Positions 6,227 to 35,387 of a stretch of 35,459 nt of DNA are shown piece by piece (within the stretch, counting starts at the first letter, position 1; each line of letters starts with the position of its first letter). The notes under the pieces were generated by a model. The model ran no database searches, was not told where the DNA came from, and saw nothing but the letters and a program-made list of their open reading frames with translations. This DNA is from an uncultured Bacilli bacterium (GTDB taxonomy: Bacteria; Bacillota_I; Bacilli_A; RF39; UBA660). Location: NCBI GenBank assembly GCA_947631295.1, contig CANRKU010000012.1, positions 1 through 35,459 on the forward strand, in the 5' to 3' direction. The position numbers were made by a program, and so were the translations under genes.

Positions 6227-8083
6227 TTTTTTCATAATTTTTATATGTTCATCTTCCGCTTCTAAAGTTCTATAATCAATTTTACCTATACTAGTTAATG
6301 GTAACTCTTCTCTAATTTGATAATCATATGGTTGTACATATTCCGGTAATTGCTCTTTACATAGGATTTTTATTTCATTAATTATTTTTTCTTCTTCATT
6401 CTTGAATTGATCCTTTAAAACTATATGTGCTTTAGGGAGTTTACCTTGACTATGCTCTAAATCTTTTATACCAACAACTGTACACAAATCTACGGCCTCA
6501 TGTGAAGAAATAACACTTTCAATTATTGATGGAAAGACTTTAAAACCATCATATCTAATAATCATTCGTTTTAGTCTATCAACGATAAATAAGTTACCAT
6601 CTTCTGTCATATATCCAATATCACCAGAATGTATCCAAACTGTACCATCTGAATGAACTTTTAAGATGTCTTTAGTAGCCTCTTCATTATCAAAATATCC
6701 CAACATGATATTTGGCCCTGTCATACAAACCTCACCCTGTTGATTGTAATGTAATTCTTCATTATTTTCAGGATTAAAGATGGCTACTGTACTTTTTACA
6801 AATGGTGATCCTACACTACCAATTTGATTACTTTGATCTAATGTTCCAACAACTCCACCAGTTACTTCAGTCATGCCATATCCCTTAGTTATTTTGGAAC
6901 TACAATTGTGTTCCATTAAAAATTTATTGGCTTCTTTTTCAAGATTAATATTCATTGCATCTCCACCTACTGTTGGAGCAATCATAAATGATAAATCTTG
7001 TTTTCTCATTTTTTTACTATTAATAATTGTTCCCCAATATGATGGAACACCTACCATATGTACTGGTTTATGTTTTAAAATTAATTTATCAAATTTTTTG
7101 GCATCAAATTGCGGAATTAATATAGTTTCCATACCAATTGTCAATGGTAAATGCAATCCCATTCCAACTCCATATGCAATAAAAGTTGGCATAATATCTA
7201 ACCAAGTATGTTTTCTTTGCATATCGATACCAGTTAGCACGCTTTGTAAAGCAACAGCATTTATGTTTTTATTTGAAAGTTTAACTCCCTTTGGATTTCC
7301 AGTTGTACCACCAGTATGTTCTATTACGACAGCTCTATTTACATCATAATCTGTTTTAATATCCTCTTCATAATTTTTTCCTTTTTCTATAAAATCGACC
7401 CAATTACTTACCTTTTGATTGAATTCTATTTTTTTATTAGAGTCTTTTAATGTTTCGATATAAGTTTTTGCTTTATAGGCAAAATGTAAATTTAAAGGTA
7501 ATGAATCAGCAGGAGATACTGCAATTGCCTTATCTATTGTTTTATTAGCAATTAGATCTTTTATTTTATAGAAATATGAATCTATTATTATCACTAACTT
7601 TGAATCAACCTCTTCTATATATTTTTTTATACCATCTTCGCTAGTTCTTGGGTCTACCATATTAGCAGTTACACCTATTTTGCTGCATGCATAAAATAAA
7701 TATGCTGCTTCAGGAATATTAGGTAGTGACACAGTTATAATATCATTTTCTTTTATACCTATTGCTTTTAATGCCTTGGCAGTAGCATTAATATTATCAA
7801 ATAATTCTTTAAAAGATATTTTTCTACCAAAATAATTCAAAGCACAGTTATTTAAAAATTTTGAATTACACTGGTATAAATAATCAAAGCATGTCATTTC
7901 TGGCAATGTTGTATTTATGCTTTCTTCACTATACCATTGTAACCAAGGTTTATCAATGCTAGCATATCCTGTTGATGGTCCTTGAATTTTTCCTAATGCT
8001 AAATTTCTTAAATATAAATCTCTTAATTTTTGCTCATTAATATCTAAATTAGCAAGTTGAGTTCTGTAATCTTTTAATTCCAT
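6224..8083 (-). CDS. AMP-forming acyl ligase (ANL superfamily)
   Basis: A 619-residue adenylate-forming enzyme. The P-loop-like motif HTGGTTGNPKGV (256-267), GYGMTE (401-406), the ATP-ribose Asp in HSGDIG (Asp488), the hinge VDRLKR (501-506) and the C-terminal catalytic Lys in TSIGKIDYR (Lys601) are all present, so it should activate a carboxylic acid as acyl-AMP. Size and layout fit an acyl-CoA synthetase. A carrier-protein ligase is possible, but no carrier protein or thioesterase gene is near. The substrate cannot be read from the sequence. AGAGGTG lies nine bases before the ATG. The gene has its own strong promoter and terminator, so it is monocistronic. Confidence 0.85.
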   Translation of the reverse strand: MELKDYRTQLANLDINEQKLRDLYLRNLALGKIQGPSTGYASIDKPWLQWYSEESINTTLPEMTCFDYLYQCNSKFLNNCALNYFGRKISFKELFDNINATAKALKAIGIKENDIITVSLPNIPEAAYLFYACSKIGVTANMVDPRTSEDGIKKYIEEVDSKLVIIIDSYFYKIKDLIANKTIDKAIAVSPADSLPLNLHFAYKAKTYIETLKDSNKKIEFNQKVSNWVDFIEKGKNYEEDIKTDYDVNRAVVIEHTGGTTGNPKGVKLSNKNINAVALQSVLTGIDMQRKHTWLDIMPTFIAYGVGMGLHLPLTIGMETILIPQFDAKKFDKLILKHKPVHMVGVPSYWGTIINSKKMRKQDLSFMIAPTVGGDAMNINLEKEANKFLMEHNCSSKITKGYGMTEVTGGVVGTLDQSNQIGSVGSPFVKSTVAIFNPENNEELHYNQQGEVCMTGPNIMLGYFDNEEATKDILKVHSDGTVWIHSGDIGYMTEDGNLFIVDRLKRMIIRYDGFKVFPSIIESVISSHEAVDLCTVVGIKDLEHSQGKLPKAHIVLKDQFKNEEEKIINEIKILCKEQLPEYVQPYDYQIREELPLTSIGKIDYRTLEAEDEHIKIMKK

Positions 8084-20285: not shown

Positions 20286-21731
20286 TTATTTCTTTAATAT
20301 TTTTGCTTTCTTTAATTCTTCACAATAACGATCTGTAGCTGATTGCCAAGATGGTAACTTTGCAAAGCCATTTTCTACTAATTTACTTTTATCTAATCTT
20401 GAATTTCTAGGTCTATATGCTTGTTTCGTGTTAGTTAGTTCTAAATATTCTTCAGTAGTAACGGGATGAATTTTCGTATTTTTTCCGTTACTTTCCATAA
20501 TATATTTCGCAAATTCTGCCCAAGAACAGTATCCTTCATTATTTACATGATAAGTACCATATTTATTTGTTTCAGCCATTTCTACTAATAATTTAGCTAA
20601 ATCAACTGTATAAGTTGGACTTCCAATTTGATCATTTACTACATTTAAATCTGTTTTTGTATCTGAAAGTTTTAACATAGTTTTTATAAAATTATTTCCA
20701 TTAATTCCAAATACCCAAGATATTCTTGTAATAAAATGATTAGGATTTCTTCTAACTTCTTCTTCTCCTAAATATTTGGTTTTACCATAAACACTTTTTG
20801 GATTAACAGGATCATTTTCTAAATAAGGAGTATCTTTTGTTCCATCAAACACATAATCTGTAGACATATAAACAATTTTTGCTCCTACCTCTAAGGATGC
20901 ATCTACTAAATTTTTCGTACCAGTTACATTAACATTAGTTACAATATCTTCTATATCTTCAGCTTTATCAACTGCTGTCCATGCAGCACAATGGAAAATA
21001 ACATCTGGTTTATATTCTTTTACTATTGTTAGAACTTGTTCTCTATTCGTAATATCCATTTGATCAACATCTAAGGCAAGAATATCATATTCTCCTCTAT
21101 TATTTAATTCTCTTACAATATCATATCCTAGTTGTCCTTTCACACCAGTTATCAAATAACGTTTTGATTCTCGTTGAAAATTAATAGTACTATTTTCTAG
21201 TGTTTCTCTTACTTCATCTTTAGAAGATAAAATTGGTTTTTCAATTTCATATTTTTTAAATATTTGATCCCAATTAATGTTTAACTCAGGATCATTCCAA
21301 AGAATTCCTCCTTCTAAGCGTGGCATATATTCATTATCTACATAATACTCAAATATGGTATCTTCTTTTAAAGATATAAATCCATGTGCAAATCCTCTTG
21401 GAACATATAACATTCTTCCATTTTCAGGAGTTAATTCTACGCTTGTCCATTGTTTATATGTTTTAGAATCTTTTCTTATATCTACTACAACATCTAATAC
21501 TGCTCCTCTATGGCATCTAACTACTTTAGCTTGACAATAAGGGTCATTTTGAAAATGTAATCCTCTTACAATTCCTTTTCCACTTAAAGAATCACTTACT
21601 TGAAAAATTCGATTAAATCCAAGTTCTTTTAAATCTTTTTCAGTAATAGATTCAAAATAACCTCTTTCATCCCCAAATCTTTGAGGTTCCAAAATATAGC
21701 AGTCTAATAAATTAGTTTCTATTTTTTTCAT
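20286..21731 (-). CDS. Fused dTDP-4-dehydrorhamnose 3,5-epimerase / dTDP-4-dehydrorhamnose reductase (RmlC-RmlD)
   Basis: A 481-residue fusion. Residues 1-185 are RmlC (RGLHFQ with His59, VVVDIR, VPRGFAHGF, FEYYVDNEY), which inverts C3 and C5 of the dTDP-4-keto sugar. Residues about 190-481 are RmlD, an NAD(P)H Rossmann reductase with TGVKGQLG (195-202), STDYVFDGT and YGKTK (Tyr315, Lys319). Together they make dTDP-L-rhamnose, or a related deoxysugar, from the RmlB product. RmlA and RmlB are not in the window. The fusion is known in some Firmicutes. It is the last gene of the polysaccharide operon but is separated from it by 210 bases holding a gene remnant and a possible promoter, so it may be controlled independently. 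Confidence 0.93.
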   Translation of the reverse strand: MKKIETNLLDCYILEPQRFGDERGYFESITEKDLKELGFNRIFQVSDSLSGKGIVRGLHFQNDPYCQAKVVRCHRGAVLDVVVDIRKDSKTYKQWTSVELTPENGRMLYVPRGFAHGFISLKEDTIFEYYVDNEYMPRLEGGILWNDPELNINWDQIFKKYEIEKPILSSKDEVRETLENSTINFQRESKRYLITGVKGQLGYDIVRELNNRGEYDILALDVDQMDITNREQVLTIVKEYKPDVIFHCAAWTAVDKAEDIEDIVTNVNVTGTKNLVDASLEVGAKIVYMSTDYVFDGTKDTPYLENDPVNPKSVYGKTKYLGEEEVRRNPNHFITRISWVFGINGNNFIKTMLKLSDTKTDLNVVNDQIGSPTYTVDLAKLLVEMAETNKYGTYHVNNEGYCSWAEFAKYIMESNGKNTKIHPVTTEEYLELTNTKQAYRPRNSRLDKSKLVENGFAKLPSWQSATDRYCEELKKAKILKK

Positions 21732-29513: not shown

Positions 29514-30611
29514 TTACTTTTTTAAATTTTTTTCATATATATTGATATATAGATTTTCTAATGCTTTAGCATTTTCTTTTATTTGATATTTTTTTATAAT
29601 ATCCAAATGCTTATCATAATACAAGCTTCTATCATTAGTATTAATTTTTGTTTTTAATATAGCATTACTCCATACTGCTGGTTCACTCTCAATCGATAAC
29701 CACTTGATATCACCAAAATCTACTTCCCTAGTTACCTTTTCAGAAACGATGCAAGGAAGCCCAGACATTTGTGCTTCTAATAAGACTATTGGCATTCCTT
29801 CAAATCGTGAAGGTAAAGTAAAAATATCAATAGCTGAATACATTGCAAAGGCTTCGTTGGATTCTCCGTATAGTATAATTCTATCCTTATAAGGGTGATG
29901 AGATATTAATTCAGAAATTTTATCATAATATGGACCAGTACCAACAAATAAAAGTATAGCGTTATCACACTTAGAGGCAACATCTTTAAAGACGTCCAAT
30001 AAATATATTTGATTTTTTGGATAATTAATTCTACCGATGTGTCCAATGATTAAATTATTTTCTAAATTTAGTTTTTTACGAATTCTGTTTCTATCCTCTA
30101 TATTAAATTTAAATTTTTCAGTAATAAATCCATTTGGTATGACATAAAAATTATTTTTTCCATAAATCCATTCTCCTGCTTTAATTCCGCATGCAAATCT
30201 ATGTGTGCATAACATATTAAAGAAAGGAAGTAATATCTTATGTAACAACAAATGATCACATACTGTATTATGAACATGCATTATTCTAATCTTAATTTGA
30301 GCCATAAAACCAACAAATAACTCTATTGAAGAATTAGCACTATTTCCATGAACGTGTAATATATCAAATTTTTCTTTTTTTAATGCTTTATATAAGTTAA
30401 TACAATACTTAAATGTATTTTTATGACGACTTGGTAATGCTATTAATTTTATATCTAAATTATTGAATATTTTTTGATATGTAATGTCTATTGGCATACC
30501 AGCTAAAATTGTTATTTCAAATTTACTTAAATTGATGTTTTCACAATAATTTCTAATGACATTACTTATTCCATTTATACTTAAGCTATTTGTTAGAATC
30601 GCTATTTTCAT
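29514..30611 (-). CDS. Glycosyltransferase family 4
   Basis: A 365-residue GT-B enzyme. The N-terminal acceptor domain begins MKIAILTNSLSINGISNVI; HVHGNSANS, IPNGF, IGHIGRINYPKNQ, FVGTGPYYDKI and the E-x7-E motif in RFEGMPIVLLEAQ (donor phosphate and nucleotide contact) mark GT4. It is a retaining transferase that adds one sugar to the lipid-linked unit on the cytoplasmic side. Sequence gives no donor. It follows the SDR gene by 42 bases, one of the wider gaps in this operon, with GGAG upstream. Confidence 0.93.
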   Translation of the reverse strand: MKIAILTNSLSINGISNVIRNYCENINLSKFEITILAGMPIDITYQKIFNNLDIKLIALPSRHKNTFKYCINLYKALKKEKFDILHVHGNSANSSIELFVGFMAQIKIRIMHVHNTVCDHLLLHKILLPFFNMLCTHRFACGIKAGEWIYGKNNFYVIPNGFITEKFKFNIEDRNRIRKKLNLENNLIIGHIGRINYPKNQIYLLDVFKDVASKCDNAILLFVGTGPYYDKISELISHHPYKDRIILYGESNEAFAMYSAIDIFTLPSRFEGMPIVLLEAQMSGLPCIVSEKVTREVDFGDIKWLSIESEPAVWSNAILKTKINTNDRSLYYDKHLDIIKKYQIKENAKALENLYINIYEKNLKK

Positions 30612-30653: not shown

Positions 30654-31517
30654 TTATTCAATATCTTCATCCCAAAAAGGATTCAAATGATTACCTGCAT
30701 TACAATGAATTATTTCTCCTGAAATACATTTTGAAGCATCACTTAACAAAAAGCATGCTACTTCTGCTATTTCTTCAGGCAAAAAAATTCTATCTGATGC
30801 ACAATTTCTATAGAGATTACCATCTTTTGCATCAGCATAATCACTTGTCATGTCAGTTAAAGTTACACCTGGAGCTATTGCATTTATCCGTATTCCATTT
30901 TTATATTCTCTTCGTGATAGTGCTCTTGTTAATGAATTTAATGCAGCTTTAGTCATTCCATATGGAATATCGTAGCATTGATTTCCTGTTTCAGATGATA
31001 TAAACAACAGGCTAGCATCCACATTTTTTTCTTTTGATTTCATTTCTAAATATTCTTTTGCTAAAAAGTAATTGGCTTTAAAATTAGTATTAAATTGCAA
31101 ATCAAAACCATTTTCAGATACATTTTTATAAATATTTTCATGCAAAGATACACCTGCATTGCATACTAAGCAGTCAATTTTTCCCTTAAACATTTTCATG
31201 CATTTTTCTAAAAAACTTTTTGATTCAGAAATATTAATTACATCATAAACAACATAAGAACAATTAACTCCTAATTCTTTAGATGACTTTTTCAAAGTTT
31301 CTTCATTTCTACCAGAAACAATAACATTAGCACCTTCACTTATAAATTTTCTAGCCATATAATAGCCAAGTCCACGACTACCTCCTGTTATTACAATATT
31401 TTTTCCTTTCAAAATTTCATTATAATTGATTTGTGCAACATTTACTTCTACTCTCTTTTCTGGTTGAGAAGATAAAATAAACTTGGCAATTTTTCGAATG
31501 TGTTTTTTTATGCTCAT
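30654..31517 (-). CDS. Short-chain dehydrogenase/reductase of the MenD-like cassette
   Basis: A 287-residue SDR. The cofactor loop TGGSRGLG, NNAG-type block VCNAG, and catalytic Ser...YGMTK (Tyr and Lys four apart) are complete, with SGR after beta-2 suggesting NADP(H). About 30 extra N-terminal residues precede the fold. It is read directly after the MenD-like gene (14 bases), so it probably reduces or oxidises the product of that enzyme. I chose the ATG at 31517 because GGAG lies seven bases before it; the ATG at 31529 would place that GGAG inside the gene. The substrate is unknown. Confidence 0.88.
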   Translation of the reverse strand: MSIKKHIRKIAKFILSSQPEKRVEVNVAQINYNEILKGKNIVITGGSRGLGYYMARKFISEGANVIVSGRNEETLKKSSKELGVNCSYVVYDVINISESKSFLEKCMKMFKGKIDCLVCNAGVSLHENIYKNVSENGFDLQFNTNFKANYFLAKEYLEMKSKEKNVDASLLFISSETGNQCYDIPYGMTKAALNSLTRALSRREYKNGIRINAIAPGVTLTDMTSDYADAKDGNLYRNCASDRIFLPEEIAEVACFLLSDASKCISGEIIHCNAGNHLNPFWDEDIE

Positions 31518-31531
31518 GATAATCTCCATTT

Positions 31532-33289
31532 TTATTTTTTTAATATTCCTGCTATCTTTTGTGCTTTTTCTTGTCCTATTGTCTTTTTTATTAATTCTTT
31601 GCTATTTCTAATTATTTCTGATTTTGTATCTTTTGGTCTACTTATATCAAAAAAGTTATATATATTTTGAGCATCATCACTCATTTCTGTGAAAACTTCA
31701 AATAATATTGGTTCATCACTATTTAATTTCATAAAAATATTTAAATTTTGATCAAAAGATTTTTTATCTATCGCTGAAATATACTTATAATTATTTTCTT
31801 TTGCCCATCCTTCTGCTTTTGTGCTATGTCTTGCTGTAGTATGCAAATCGCTTGCTTGATTTTTCCACATTTTATTAAAATAAAATTCTGAGCCTCCATG
31901 GTTATTAATCAAAAGAATATGAAGTCTTTTATTCATTTTCTTTATTCTTAATGCATTCATATCATAAAAGAAAGCCAAATCTCCTATTATCAGAAAACTT
32001 TCTTTATTGCTAGCAGAAGCCTGTCCTAAAAAGGATGATAAACATCCATCAATTCCATGTGTACCAATATTCGCATAAACTTTAATATTATCTTTTAATT
32101 TAAAAAAGTTGGTAATTCTTATGCTATTATTAATACTTAAATGTAAAATTGAATTTTCAGGAATATTTTCTACAACATTTTTTATGGCATAAATATGAGA
32201 ATATGGGAATTCTGGAATCACTACTGAATTTACATATTTTTTTAGTTGATTAAAATACATTCTATCATTTTCAATTTTTTCTTCTTCATTACATTTACTA
32301 AAAAAGCATTCAGGTTTACATTCAAATATTGTAGTTATGCTTTTATATAAATCTATTACTTTTCCATCTTCTTGAATTAACCAATGTTCAAATGTTCCAC
32401 AAAATTTTCTAAATTGTTCTTTAATTCCTGAAAAAATATTTCCACCAAAAGATATAATAATATCTGGTAATAGTTCTTTTACTTTTTTATCTGTTACAAA
32501 TCTAGCATCCATACACACATTTAGATTTAAAGTGTTTTCAAATTGAATATTTGACATATATTCTATCGAAATTGCTGAATTATACTTTTTAAAAAATATT
32601 TCTAATTCTTTTTTTAATTCATTGGATGGATTGCTTATTTGTCCACATGTTACTAAAATTCGCTTGGCATTTTTTAATTGTATAATTTTATTATTCCATG
32701 CTTGATTATCATCATAAATTCTTTCAATTTTTGTAACCTCAGGTAATTGTTTTATATTAAATGAATTATTATAAGATTTCATCGGAACATTAATGTGAAC
32801 TGGACCTTTTCCATGATGATCTAATTCCAATAATGCTTCATTAACTAATCTTTGGCAGTAAATTTCATCATCTCTATCATGTATAATTGGTAAATTAACT
32901 GATTTTTTCACATGCCTGTCATACATTCCAACTTGATCAATCATTTGATCTTCCCATTGCCCAAGCATAGCGGGATTTCTATCACTAGTCAATACAATAA
33001 TTGGCACTCCTTGATAAAAAGCTTCAGCAACAGGAGGCCAATAGTTACATGTTGCCGTTGATGAAGTACAAGAGATAACTACTGGTTCATTTAACTCTTG
33101 GGCCAATCCTAAGGCAAAATAACCAGCGCTTCTTTCATCAACAACTGAATAACATTTAAAATACGAATCTTCTTCAATTGAATGAACAAAAGGTACATTT
33201 CTGCTTCCAGCAGAAAGAACACAATGTTTTATATTATACTTTTTTAATAATGCTATTATTATTTGATACGATTTTAATTCTGTATACAT
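31532..33289 (-). CDS. MenD-like thiamine diphosphate enzyme in a polysaccharide operon
   Basis: A 585-residue ThDP enzyme closest in pattern to MenD (SEPHCHC synthase): LSAGSRNVP, VVDERSAGYFALGLA (Glu52, the ThDP-activating Glu), CTSSTATCNYWPPVAEA, LTSDRNPA, NGIDG-like THGIDGCLSS, and the cofactor motif GDLAFFYDMNAL...INN (Gly436-Asn463). The MenD signature RGxxGIDG has Ile408 in place of the Arg, and a 40-residue tail follows the fold, so the acceptor is probably not isochorismate. No other menaquinone gene is near. Its 1-base overlap with the pyruvyl transferase gene (TAATG) and the SDR gene next to it suggest it adds a two- to four-carbon unit from a 2-oxoacid to a sugar or sugar precursor. 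That role is inference. Confidence 0.82.
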   Translation of the reverse strand: MYTELKSYQIIIALLKKYNIKHCVLSAGSRNVPFVHSIEEDSYFKCYSVVDERSAGYFALGLAQELNEPVVISCTSSTATCNYWPPVAEAFYQGVPIIVLTSDRNPAMLGQWEDQMIDQVGMYDRHVKKSVNLPIIHDRDDEIYCQRLVNEALLELDHHGKGPVHINVPMKSYNNSFNIKQLPEVTKIERIYDDNQAWNNKIIQLKNAKRILVTCGQISNPSNELKKELEIFFKKYNSAISIEYMSNIQFENTLNLNVCMDARFVTDKKVKELLPDIIISFGGNIFSGIKEQFRKFCGTFEHWLIQEDGKVIDLYKSITTIFECKPECFFSKCNEEEKIENDRMYFNQLKKYVNSVVIPEFPYSHIYAIKNVVENIPENSILHLSINNSIRITNFFKLKDNIKVYANIGTHGIDGCLSSFLGQASASNKESFLIIGDLAFFYDMNALRIKKMNKRLHILLINNHGGSEFYFNKMWKNQASDLHTTARHSTKAEGWAKENNYKYISAIDKKSFDQNLNIFMKLNSDEPILFEVFTEMSDDAQNIYNFFDISRPKDTKSEIIRNSKELIKKTIGQEKAQKIAGILKK

Positions 33290-34401
33290 TATTCAATTTC
33301 CTCCTTTAGGTATGAAATGGTTTGATTTCTATTTTTCTTAATAATATTATTTGTTTTCTCATAATCTATTTTAAGATTTAATATTTTTGGCATATTACAT
33401 ACATCAGTAATCATCCTATCTTTTAGACCTAGCCTATTTAACAAATCTTCTATTTTTTCTTCATTGCCATAAGAATTGCCCTTACTTTTTCTGACTAATG
33501 TAACAAAGGGTTTATTATTTATAATAGAAAAGATACTACCGTGAAAAGTATCTGTAACTATACATTCAGCTTTTTTAAAATATGCTAATACTTCAAAAGG
33601 TTCACAATCAATGAATTTATCACAATATTTTTGTACACCACCAATAGCATATATTTTTAGATTATTTTGACTAGCATAGTCTTTGATTTTTTTTGCCTCA
33701 TTTTTTGATATTCTTCCAGAATATGCATATAGAATCATATATTTTTCAGTTGGTTTTATTTCTGGTATTAAATTTTTCTGATTCATATAATCATATATTA
33801 AGACTGGATCTAAATTAGAAACTACTTCTTTATTTGTAAGTTTTGATATAATTTTTTCAGAATTCTTATCTCTAACAGATATAGTGTCTATTTTATTAAG
33901 TAAACATGCAATTTCTTTTTCTCTATTAAATTGTTTTAGTTTTTCTAAAGTAGTATTTCCAAATGATGCAGCGTATGTAATTACTTTTTTAGCATTATTG
34001 TTTTTTCCAAATAATTCTAAAGAATATCCTACATTTTTATTAGATTGAATACAATTAAATACTTCATCACTACCAATTACCAGAACATCCAAGTTCGGAT
34101 TATAATTATAAACTGAATTTATTCCTAATACTTTATAATTTTTGGTAAAATTTTTTTTGTATTTAATATATTGAATTTTTTGTTTTAAAGTTGCATCATT
34201 TTTTAAAATTTCTAATATTTTATTTTTACCTTTATCTGTAATTAATGGTTGTTCTATATGATAATCCACGAATTCTACTACTGAATTGGTATTTTCTTCA
34301 ATTAAAGCTTTTAAGGCATATGCTTGCAAAAACGAACCATAATTTTTTATTCTTTGCATTGATAGAATACCAACTTTTTTGATTTTCTGTTTATTTTTCA
34401 T
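33289..34401 (-). CDS. Polysaccharide pyruvyl transferase family protein
   Basis: A 370-residue member of the CsaB/WcaK family (PF04230). Recognisable blocks are GILSMQRIKNYGSFLQAYAL at the N terminus, VIGSDEVFNC, TYAASFGN, the NLDPVLIYD block and the C-terminal CIVTDTFHGSIFSIINNKPFVTL. Members add pyruvate ketals from phosphoenolpyruvate to sugars, giving acidic polymers; some members in loci like this may transfer other groups. It starts at the base after the Alg13-like stop and its own stop overlaps the MenD-like ATG, so the three genes are tightly coupled. Confidence 0.88.
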   Translation of the reverse strand: MKNKQKIKKVGILSMQRIKNYGSFLQAYALKALIEENTNSVVEFVDYHIEQPLITDKGKNKILEILKNDATLKQKIQYIKYKKNFTKNYKVLGINSVYNYNPNLDVLVIGSDEVFNCIQSNKNVGYSLELFGKNNNAKKVITYAASFGNTTLEKLKQFNREKEIACLLNKIDTISVRDKNSEKIISKLTNKEVVSNLDPVLIYDYMNQKNLIPEIKPTEKYMILYAYSGRISKNEAKKIKDYASQNNLKIYAIGGVQKYCDKFIDCEPFEVLAYFKKAECIVTDTFHGSIFSIINNKPFVTLVRKSKGNSYGNEEKIEDLLNRLGLKDRMITDVCNMPKILNLKIDYEKTNNIIKKNRNQTISYLKEEIE

Positions 34402-34896
34402 TTATAACATTCCTTCTATTTCTTTTAGTAAAGCTTGATTAAATTTTTTATTATTAGATGAATTTTTATTATTAACTTTTTTGATTTTTTCATCATAATT
34501 CATAACTGCATCTACTAATTCTTTTTCTGTTTCTACTAAAATTATAGTATTCATTCTTTTTTCTACTTCTCGTGCAAAATCTAATTGATGGTTATTAACA
34601 TGTTCATTAAATTCTTTTTTTCGTGGAACAACTATTGGTACTTTTCCAATTGATAATGGGGCAATAAAACTAGCTGGTCCCCCATGAGTTATCACAATCC
34701 TAGCTTCCTCAATATATTTTTGCATTTTTTCATAACTAATTAATTGATAAGATTCACAATATTTTGGTTCATAATCAGTATATCCTTTTTGAATAATTAC
34801 TTTTTCTTGTATTTTTTTTTCTTTTACCATTGTATCTATCCATTTTAGTAATCTATCAAATGGTTGTTCATGTGTCCCTACTGTAACAAAAATCAT
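34402..34896 (-). CDS. Alg13-like glycosyltransferase subunit (GT28 C-terminal domain)
   Basis: A 164-residue protein with the GT28 C-terminal (donor-binding) half: MIFVTVGTHEQPFDRLL at the start and ITHGGPASFIAPLSIGKVPIVVPR in the middle. In bacterial loci such proteins (EpsF, Cps14G, Alg13 type) work with an Alg14-type partner as a split GT-B enzyme. The frame opens at 34965, but AGGAGG lies just before the ATG at 34896. The partner gene ends 11 bases upstream. Together they would add the second sugar of the repeat unit, often a beta-1,4-linked hexose. Confidence 0.92.
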   Translation of the reverse strand: MIFVTVGTHEQPFDRLLKWIDTMVKEKKIQEKVIIQKGYTDYEPKYCESYQLISYEKMQKYIEEARIVITHGGPASFIAPLSIGKVPIVVPRKKEFNEHVNNHQLDFAREVEKRMNTIILVETEKELVDAVMNYDEKIKKVNNKNSSNNKKFNQALLKEIEGML

Positions 34897-34907
34897 TATT
34901 ATTCCTC

Positions 34908-35387
34908 CTAAAAAATGCTTCCTAAGTTTATTGCTTTTGGATATACCTTTTTCATTTCTTCCCATTGTACAATGAACTTATCTGTTACTGGATATACGAG
35001 CTTTCCTGTCATTGTTGATTTATCTATTCTGTCAAATACTTCAATATAAATTGTTTTTGCACCAAAAAGTTTACCAAAATAGAAAAAGGGAACGGCTACT
35101 GCGGCGCCTGATGATATTATCAAATCCGGTTTTTCTTTTTTAAGAATTTTTATTGCTAAAAACGTATTTTTTATTAAATTTTTAATATTTCTATTTGTAG
35201 GAAAATAGCAATGATATAATTTTTCATTTTCAAGGATACTATTAGCATCTACTTTATCAAATGTCACCCAAAATCTTTTTTTATTTTCCCATAAAGGTTT
35301 TAACATATATAAATGTGTTAAGTGACCTCCACTCGAGCCTACAAGACATATTTTTATTTCTTCCATTGATTTTGACTTTTTCTTCAT
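34908..35387 (-). CDS. Alg14-like glycosyltransferase subunit
   Basis: A 159-residue protein with the Alg14/EpsE/Cps14F fold: ICLVGSSGGHLTHLYML (glycine-rich N-terminal loop), PDLIISSGAAVAVPFFYFGKLFGAKTIYIE and ITDKFIVQWEEMKK-like end (PVTDKFIVQW). It supplies the membrane-associated, acceptor-side half of the split transferase whose catalytic half is the next gene. The ATG at 35387 has AGGA six bases upstream; an ATG seven codons later is possible. It is the first gene of the operon visible in the window. Priming transferase and chain-length genes are not seen and may lie to the right. Confidence 0.9.
   Translation of the reverse strand: MKKKSKSMEEIKICLVGSSGGHLTHLYMLKPLWENKKRFWVTFDKVDANSILENEKLYHCYFPTNRNIKNLIKNTFLAIKILKKEKPDLIISSGAAVAVPFFYFGKLFGAKTIYIEVFDRIDKSTMTGKLVYPVTDKFIVQWEEMKKVYPKAINLGSIF

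Follow-up and report, generated by a model that had tools for sequence, protein, structure and literature searches.

A MenD-derived enzyme paired with a pyruvyl transferase probably builds a carbon side chain on capsule sugars of gut bacteria

In menaquinone synthesis, the thiamine diphosphate (ThDP)-dependent enzyme MenD joins 2-oxoglutarate to isochorismate. Yersiniose synthesis follows the logic of a ThDP enzyme, then a reductase; its ThDP enzyme, YerE, resembles acetolactate synthase and has a cytidine diphosphate (CDP)-ketosugar as substrate, and the pathway has no polysaccharide pyruvyl transferase (PPT). The present analysis concerns a window of 35,459 nucleotides (the whole stretch analysed) from contig CANRKU010000012.1 of an uncultured Bacilli bacterium (GCA_947631295.1), in which genes for a PPT family protein, a MenD-like ThDP-dependent enzyme, and a classical short-chain dehydrogenase/reductase (SDR) form a cassette within a Wzx-type polysaccharide operon. 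The cassette is a real and widespread glycan-tailoring module, and the chemistry proposed for it from the sequences is a strong hypothesis. In the surface-polysaccharide clusters of many gut bacteria, a copy of MenD has been put to a new use and probably adds a new carbon side chain to a capsule sugar. A literature search on MenD in capsule, exopolysaccharide, and pyruvyl transferase contexts found no description of this cassette among the papers searched.

The MenD-like protein scored 270.8 bits against the menD model TIGR00173, which is above the curated cut-off of 244.2, so annotation pipelines will call it MenD. The best score against models of the acetohydroxyacid synthase (AHAS) family was 48.7 bits, far from the cut-off of 538, and MenD structures were the top Foldseek matches of the predicted model (predicted local distance difference test, pLDDT, 82.8). 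Comparison with the MenD and acetolactate synthase profiles had been proposed in a preliminary description made from the sequence alone, and its assignment of the protein to the MenD type was upheld. Alignment with Escherichia coli MenD likewise agreed with its reading of the active site: the ThDP-activating Glu52 aligns with Glu55, the GDLAFF...NN cofactor motif is intact, and the signature arginine (Arg413 in E. coli, Arg428 in Bacillus subtilis) is replaced by Ile408. Ile474 and Leu478 of the E. coli enzyme are also changed, to Glu468 and Asn472, and Ser29/Arg30, Arg104, Gln115, and Arg391 are retained.

Residues were compared in an alignment of about 109 sequences that included 27 proteins of clade A, the group of the window's protein and its close relatives. 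The positions S391, R395, R413, I474, F475, and L478 (E. coli numbers) are N, R, I, E, F, and N in 27/27 clade A proteins, and all six are retained by the true MenDs in the alignment. Of the two arginines at the 2-oxoglutarate tail, R395 is thus kept and R413 is isoleucine in every clade A sequence, and the hydrophobic patch Ile474/Phe475/Leu478 reads Glu/Phe/Asn. Mutagenesis of B. subtilis MenD indicated that Arg428 (R413) mainly serves 2-oxoglutarate and that Arg409 (R395) and Arg106 (R107) serve isochorismate also or mainly (PMC2914249), and Ser33/Arg34 of Staphylococcus aureus MenD were assigned to the decarboxylation pocket (PMC9835592). Taken with these roles, the clade A pattern points to an altered donor-tail site and to a decarboxylation site that is retained together with part of the acceptor site; the predicted pocket has gained one glutamate and one asparagine. 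Position 408 is isoleucine in clade A and mostly threonine or valine in the more divergent clade C, and the residues at 472 differ as well, which suggests different 2-oxoacid donors. Loss of Lys292 was considered as a clade signature and rejected, since this residue is absent also from most lactobacillus MenDs.

The MenD-like enzyme of the cassette is independent of menaquinone synthesis. It is the sole MenD in a 1.1-Mb, 92%-complete genome in which no menB was found, so the remark that no other men gene accompanies it extends from the operon to the genome. Among 21 other genomes holding a close relative, menB was above the cut-off in 4 and in 17 none reached it, and Bacteroidota of the same families carry a separate MenD inside men operons. 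In a quick tree with some long branches, the polysaccharide-linked MenD-like proteins formed one clade adjoining Bacteroidota MenD, with Shimodaira-Hasegawa-like approximate likelihood ratio (SH-aLRT) support of 85 with 59 rows and 98 with 58 rows. The protein is therefore placed outside menaquinone MenD, and the earlier proposal that MenD chemistry was recruited to the polysaccharide locus is well supported, with substrates that are predicted.

Linkage was assessed in 63 non-menaquinone MenD-like loci by shuffling the gene order 5000 times; since the loci are related to each other, the shuffle figures are not strict probabilities. A PPT gene was located at most one gene from the MenD-like gene in 45 of the 63 loci (shuffle mean 10.5, maximum 24) and at most two genes away in 57 (shuffle mean 20.2). 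A reductase, either an SDR or an extended SDR, was found at most one gene away in 40 loci (shuffle mean 7.1) and at most two genes away in 42, and no enrichment over the shuffle was seen for GT2 or GT4 glycosyltransferase genes. The orders PPT-MenD-SDR, MenD-SDR-PPT, and SDR-MenD-PPT all occur with linkage kept throughout, and in most clade A loci the SDR adjoins the MenD-like gene. Moreover, the PPT and MenD-like genes are fused in both orders, as PPT::MenD-like in L095 (7149-10430, a single 1093-aa open reading frame, ORF) and as MenD-like::PPT in L141 (142-3153, minus strand, 1003 aa) and again in L183; the fusions in L095 and L141 were confirmed with Pfam. These opposite-order fusions are the strongest evidence obtained here and indicate that both proteins serve one pathway. 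The PPT, MenD-like enzyme, and SDR almost certainly constitute a functional module. The three genes had been described as a cassette expected to recur in other genomes; recurrence was found, with the genes close together in most genomes that carry the MenD-like one, and the cassette holds for the PPT, whose linkage is near-constant, and less strictly for the SDR, which is frequent and not invariant. Apparent 926-aa fusions in L012 and L025 were discarded as overlapping frames in GC-rich DNA. The N-terminal part of the L095 fusion (7149-7650) weakly matches the ILEI domain (PF15711, below cut-off).

The PPT of the window matched PF04230 with an E-value of 2.7e-29 and reached 30.6 bits against the CsaB equivalog TIGR03609, short of its cut-off of 213.1. 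The AlphaFold model (pLDDT 92) had GT-B glycosyltransferases and epimerases as top Foldseek matches; a profile search against PDB sequences gave no useful match, so the GT-B fold is taken from the model. R177 and H287 are invariant in the PPT alignment (A2), and we take them, as a guess, to be equivalents of the phosphoenolpyruvate (PEP)-binding residues Arg148, His308, and Lys328 of CsaB.

An alternative partner of the PPT was identified in a control set of 12 PssD loci of the Eisenbergiella family without MenD-like genes: a PPT was present in three, and in all three it was adjoined by a gene for an FrhB/FdhB-type iron-sulphur (Fe-S) flavoprotein. In 50 PPT loci from 160 genomes, FrhB stood beside the PPT in 21, a MenD-like gene in 4, both in none, and neither in 25, and 4 of the 21 FrhB-paired loci encode PPT-FrhB fusions in single ORFs (L197, L203, L214, and L222). 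F420-dehydrogenase-like Fe-S flavoproteins of the FrhB/FdhB type were also noted paired with PPTs in the polysaccharide loci L170, L178, L180, L234, and L236. The PPT tree implies at least 6-7 switches between the FrhB and the MenD-like partner; the L. equicursoris PPT, which has a MenD-like partner, is sister to a PPT partnered with FrhB. With the sole exception of L094, a locus that has FrhB as well as a MenD-like gene contains two or more PPTs, each partner having its own. The plain reading of this alternation among closely related PPTs is a single PPT product that is processed by either partner. The possibility that MenD-linked PPTs form one orthologous clade was rejected, as several PPT subtypes are in use. 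The neighbours of PPTs with neither partner were mostly GT2s, an acyltransferase, and a radical SAM protein, and no third consistent partner was found among them. The PPTs at L199 2575-3747 and L234 4708-5880 have radical SAM proteins (in L199 of SPASM type) as immediate or close neighbours, perhaps a further processing partner.

A flavoprotein reductase would have no obvious task on a finished ketal and could turn an enolpyruvyl ether into a lactyl ether, and the PPT-FrhB pair is probably a lactyl-ether pathway, of which no description was found. Related information is available for Klebsiella capsules. A survey of 79 capsule loci gives PPT genes in K8, K22, K37, and K66, described there as types without a pyruvate ketal (PMC4616057). 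In Table 1 of PMC6856556, O-lac substituents are listed only for K22, K37, and K66, and K8 is given as pyruvylated; the abbreviation is expanded there to 'O-lactose', and a title cited in PMC3857182 identifies the K22 substituent as 4-O-[(S)-1-carboxyethyl]-glucuronic acid. The survey of capsule loci further lists one coenzyme F420 hydrogenase gene and two nitroreductase genes, three in total (PMC4616057), and our guess is that these belong to K22, K37, and K66. The association of PPT-family genes with lactyl ethers in Klebsiella suggests an enolpyruvyl-type intermediate.

From the sequences we infer all substrates and products of the cassette as follows. The PPT would move an enolpyruvyl unit from PEP onto a hydroxyl of a repeat-unit sugar, giving sugar-O-C(=CH2)-COO-. 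This O-enolpyruvyl group is an unsaturated carboxylate, the acceptor type of isochorismate, so a 1,4-addition of the MenD type would yield a 4-oxo acid ether. The MenD-like enzyme would decarboxylate a 2-oxoacid on ThDP (2-oxoglutarate would not be bound in the manner of MenD, and pyruvate is the simplest guess), and the acyl carbanion would add 1,4 to the unsaturated carboxylate to form sugar-O-CH(COO-)-CH2-CO-R. The SDR, or an extended SDR in other loci, would then reduce the 4-oxo group to 4-hydroxy, and with pyruvate as donor the end product would be a 2,4-dihydroxypentanoic acid 2-ether. In sister loci, the FrhB-like flavoprotein would instead act like MurB and reduce the enolpyruvyl group, giving a lactyl (1-carboxyethyl) ether. 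The PPT had earlier been given the role of attaching a finished group; the results suggest instead that it works ahead of the MenD-like enzyme and provides the acceptor for it.

Action of the MenD-like enzyme on a PPT-derived product is the better supported part of this scheme and is rather probable. That the cassette is a MenD-derived module tailoring a capsule sugar through the full enolpyruvyl/Stetter route is a proposition for which we see the case as evenly balanced, and pyruvate as the clade A donor is a tentative and somewhat doubtful choice. With slightly less than even confidence, a broader scheme may be put forward, in which O-enolpyruvyl ethers made by PPTs would be either reduced to lactyl ethers (FrhB) or extended by decarboxylative carbon-carbon bond formation (MenD-like), with donors diversified among the MenD-like clades, so that a new polysaccharide decoration, a family of 4-oxo and 4-hydroxy acid ethers, would arise on gut-bacterial capsules.

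Several points weigh against the proposed route. We know of no glycan structure for any locus with the cassette, and the characterised PPTs (CsaB and Pvg1p) form ketals rather than enolpyruvyl ethers. No reductase is encoded close to the MenD-like gene (at most two genes away) in about a third of the loci. In L094, an FrhB-like fragment lies between the only PPT and the MenD-like gene. Finally, members near the base of the polysaccharide-linked clade (L113, L040, and L041) retain R413 and Ile/Leu474; they may use 2-oxoglutarate still, and donors may differ between members. The residues of these basal proteins suggest that a Bacteroidota-type MenD, once duplicated or transferred, changed step by step.

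Other explanations were weighed against the same evidence. In a YerE-like scheme, the MenD-like enzyme would decarboxylate a 2-oxoacid and join it to the keto group of a nucleoside diphosphate (NDP)-ketosugar, the SDR would reduce the side-chain ketone, and the PPT would separately add a pyruvate ketal to the same sugar. The sequence of ThDP enzyme and reductase known from yersiniose, the reductase adjoining the MenD-like gene in 40/63 loci, and the RmlC-RmlD fusion of the window operon are all in keeping with such a scheme, but it leaves unexplained the near-invariant PPT linkage, the PPT/MenD-like fusions, and the alternation of partners with FrhB. No NDP-sugar dehydratase is a constant neighbour, the acetolactate synthase model scores are far under cut-off, and the retained isochorismate-side residues suggest a carboxylate-bearing acceptor; we therefore consider the scheme unlikely. 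Tight PPT/MenD-like linkage and fusion would equally be predicted if the MenD-like enzyme released a soluble product, a 2-oxo or 4-oxo acid or one of its derivatives, which the PPT then attached instead of pyruvate. However, known PPTs use PEP, the cassette has no linked kinase or other activating enzyme, and the pairing of closely related PPTs with an FrhB-like reductase fits a common PPT product better than two donors, which makes this order of events improbable.

The remaining two explanations are far less plausible. A true menaquinone MenD (2-succinyl-5-enolpyruvyl-6-hydroxy-3-cyclohexene-1-carboxylate synthase) that came to lie in a capsule operon by accident would account for the TIGR00173 score and the MenD fold, yet menB is absent from the genome and, above cut-off, from most of the relatives' genomes, the same-family Bacteroidota own a second MenD in men operons, and the protein, which belongs to a separate clade, has other residues in place of Arg413, Ile474, and Leu478, all three of which each aligned true MenD retains; the chance of this is negligible. 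Mere co-occurrence of often-transferred polysaccharide genes without a common pathway is hardly more credible: PPT genes are common in such loci and half of the 50 PPTs have neither partner, but the permutation test, the opposite-order fusions, the persistence of linkage in permuted gene orders, and the presence of one PPT per partner all argue against it. The enolpyruvyl route is the reading preferred here.

Close relatives of the MenD-like protein were found in 24 loci (63-77% identity, one scan of GTDB genomes), with a PPT near the MenD-like gene in 24/24. The loci span Bacillota, Bacteroidota, Actinomycetota, and metagenome-assembled genomes labelled Elusimicrobia and Saccharibacteria, labels that may reflect contamination. 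Within the window's own class a match was present in 2 of 395 genomes, the window's own counted, and no match to the MenD-like gene was found in the sampled genome of the window's genus, so horizontal acquisition is likely. Clades B and C, which are more divergent, were recovered by wider searches and occur in the Eisenbergiella, Lactobacillus, Xylanibacter, and Bifidobacterium families. In one cluster of the Bifidobacterium family (L166, G1549:C3:8000-27900), a MenD-like gene of clade A occurs together with one of clade C. L002 (5106-8666), L099 (7804-11195), L088, and L089/L090 have two or three MenD-like genes each, in tandem or within the same cluster; some are frameshifted, which suggests duplication and decay. 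Plasmid-borne polysaccharide clusters with MenD-like/PPT or PPT/FrhB genes were noted in Ruminococcus albus 7 (L027 on pRUMAL01 and L235 on pRUMAL02) and Pseudobutyrivibrio xylanivorans (L234 on pNP95); on pRUMAL02 and pNP95, the PPT near FrhB is annotated as two pieces. MenD-like proteins of 31-34% identity are encoded in the faecal 'Bacteriophage sp.' records MT835729, MT835934, MT837954, and MT835535, and perhaps represent bacterial capsule DNA in virus-like-particle preparations.

The features of the locus are listed in Table 1. A AAAGGAGG ribosome-binding site precedes the TAATG in which the PPT stop shares one base with the MenD-like start, and two bases separate the MenD-like gene from the SDR; the statement that the three genes overlap or nearly touch was accurate. 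The interval first assigned to them, 31517-34401, covers the PPT and MenD-like genes but just 13 bases at the start of the SDR, whose other end is at 30654. The SDR has the motifs TGGSRGLG and S...YGMTK, which agree with the classical TGxxxGxG and S...YxxxK patterns. On the minus strand, the operon runs in transcription order PssD, PssE, PPT, MenD-like, SDR, GT4, hexapeptide acetyltransferase, Caps_synth, a 386-aa ORF (perhaps Wzy), GT2, Wzx, GT61, acyltransferase, and RmlC-RmlD fusion; the operon start is missing because the contig breaks off shortly before PssD. The fusion is a single 481-aa ORF (20286-21731) that joins RmlC and RmlD of deoxythymidine diphosphate (dTDP)-rhamnose synthesis. 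A PssE-type subunit precedes the cassette in many clade A loci, and the position of the GT4 downstream of it is conserved in clade A.

Table 1. Cassette genes, their junction, and flanking glycosyltransferase genes in the window
Feature	Position	Strand	Details
PPT (polysaccharide pyruvyl transferase family, PF04230)	33289..34401	minus	370 aa, intact ORF
MenD-like ThDP-dependent enzyme	31532..33289	minus	585 aa, intact ORF
Classical SDR	30654..31529	minus	291 aa, intact ORF; PF13561 E 1.9e-42, PF00106
PssE/Cps14G-type glycosyltransferase subunit	34402..34965	minus	NF041548 107 bits (cut-off 120, just under), PF04101
PssD/Cps14F-type glycosyltransferase subunit	34908..35387	minus	NF041549 145 bits, cut-off 110
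GT4 glycosyltransferase	29514..30611	minus	PF00534/PF13692; directly downstream of cassette
PPT/MenD-like junction	33285..33310	minus	Shine-Dalgarno-like AAAGGAGG and 1-base TAATG overlap, read from sequence

A large group of proteins annotated automatically as menaquinone MenD is very probably composed of glycan-tailoring enzymes, and menaquinone-pathway predictions for cassette-bearing genomes can be wrong. By way of a single, testable intermediate, the proposed route would also connect the PPT-FrhB gene pair with the lactyl and dihydroxypentanoyl ethers of bacterial polysaccharides. If true, it would be a rare case of carbon-carbon bond formation in polysaccharide decoration, on capsules exposed to phages and to the immune system of the gut.

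Compared with MenD, of which the Bacteroidota type is closest (about 37% identical), the cassette enzyme has the same fold, ThDP glutamate, and cofactor motif, and keeps the decarboxylation-pocket Ser/Arg, the acceptor-side Arg107 and Gln118, and Arg395 (E. coli numbers). It differs in the lack of Arg413, Ile474, Leu478, and Ser391, in its location in capsule operons with a PPT and an SDR, and in hosts that are often without menaquinone genes. The YerE/YerF pathway of yersiniose has in common with the cassette a ThDP carboligase and a reductase that decorate a surface sugar. The cassette PPT shares the PF04230 domain and GT-B fold with CsaB of P. alvei, Pvg1p, and the WcaK type, but falls below the CsaB equivalog cut-off, is partnered with a MenD-like or FrhB-like protein, and has as its proposed product an enolpyruvyl ether, not a ketal. 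With MurA/MurB the likeness is one of logic, in that an enolpyruvyl group is transferred first and its C=C bond is processed afterwards, and no homology is claimed; here the processing would be FrhB reduction or MenD-like acyl addition, on a capsule sugar. The O-antigen of Providencia alcalifaciens O31 contains 2-ethers of 2,4-dihydroxypentanoic acid, according to a citation of Shashkov 2008 in PMC10609480, and this is the product predicted for the cassette if the donor is pyruvate.

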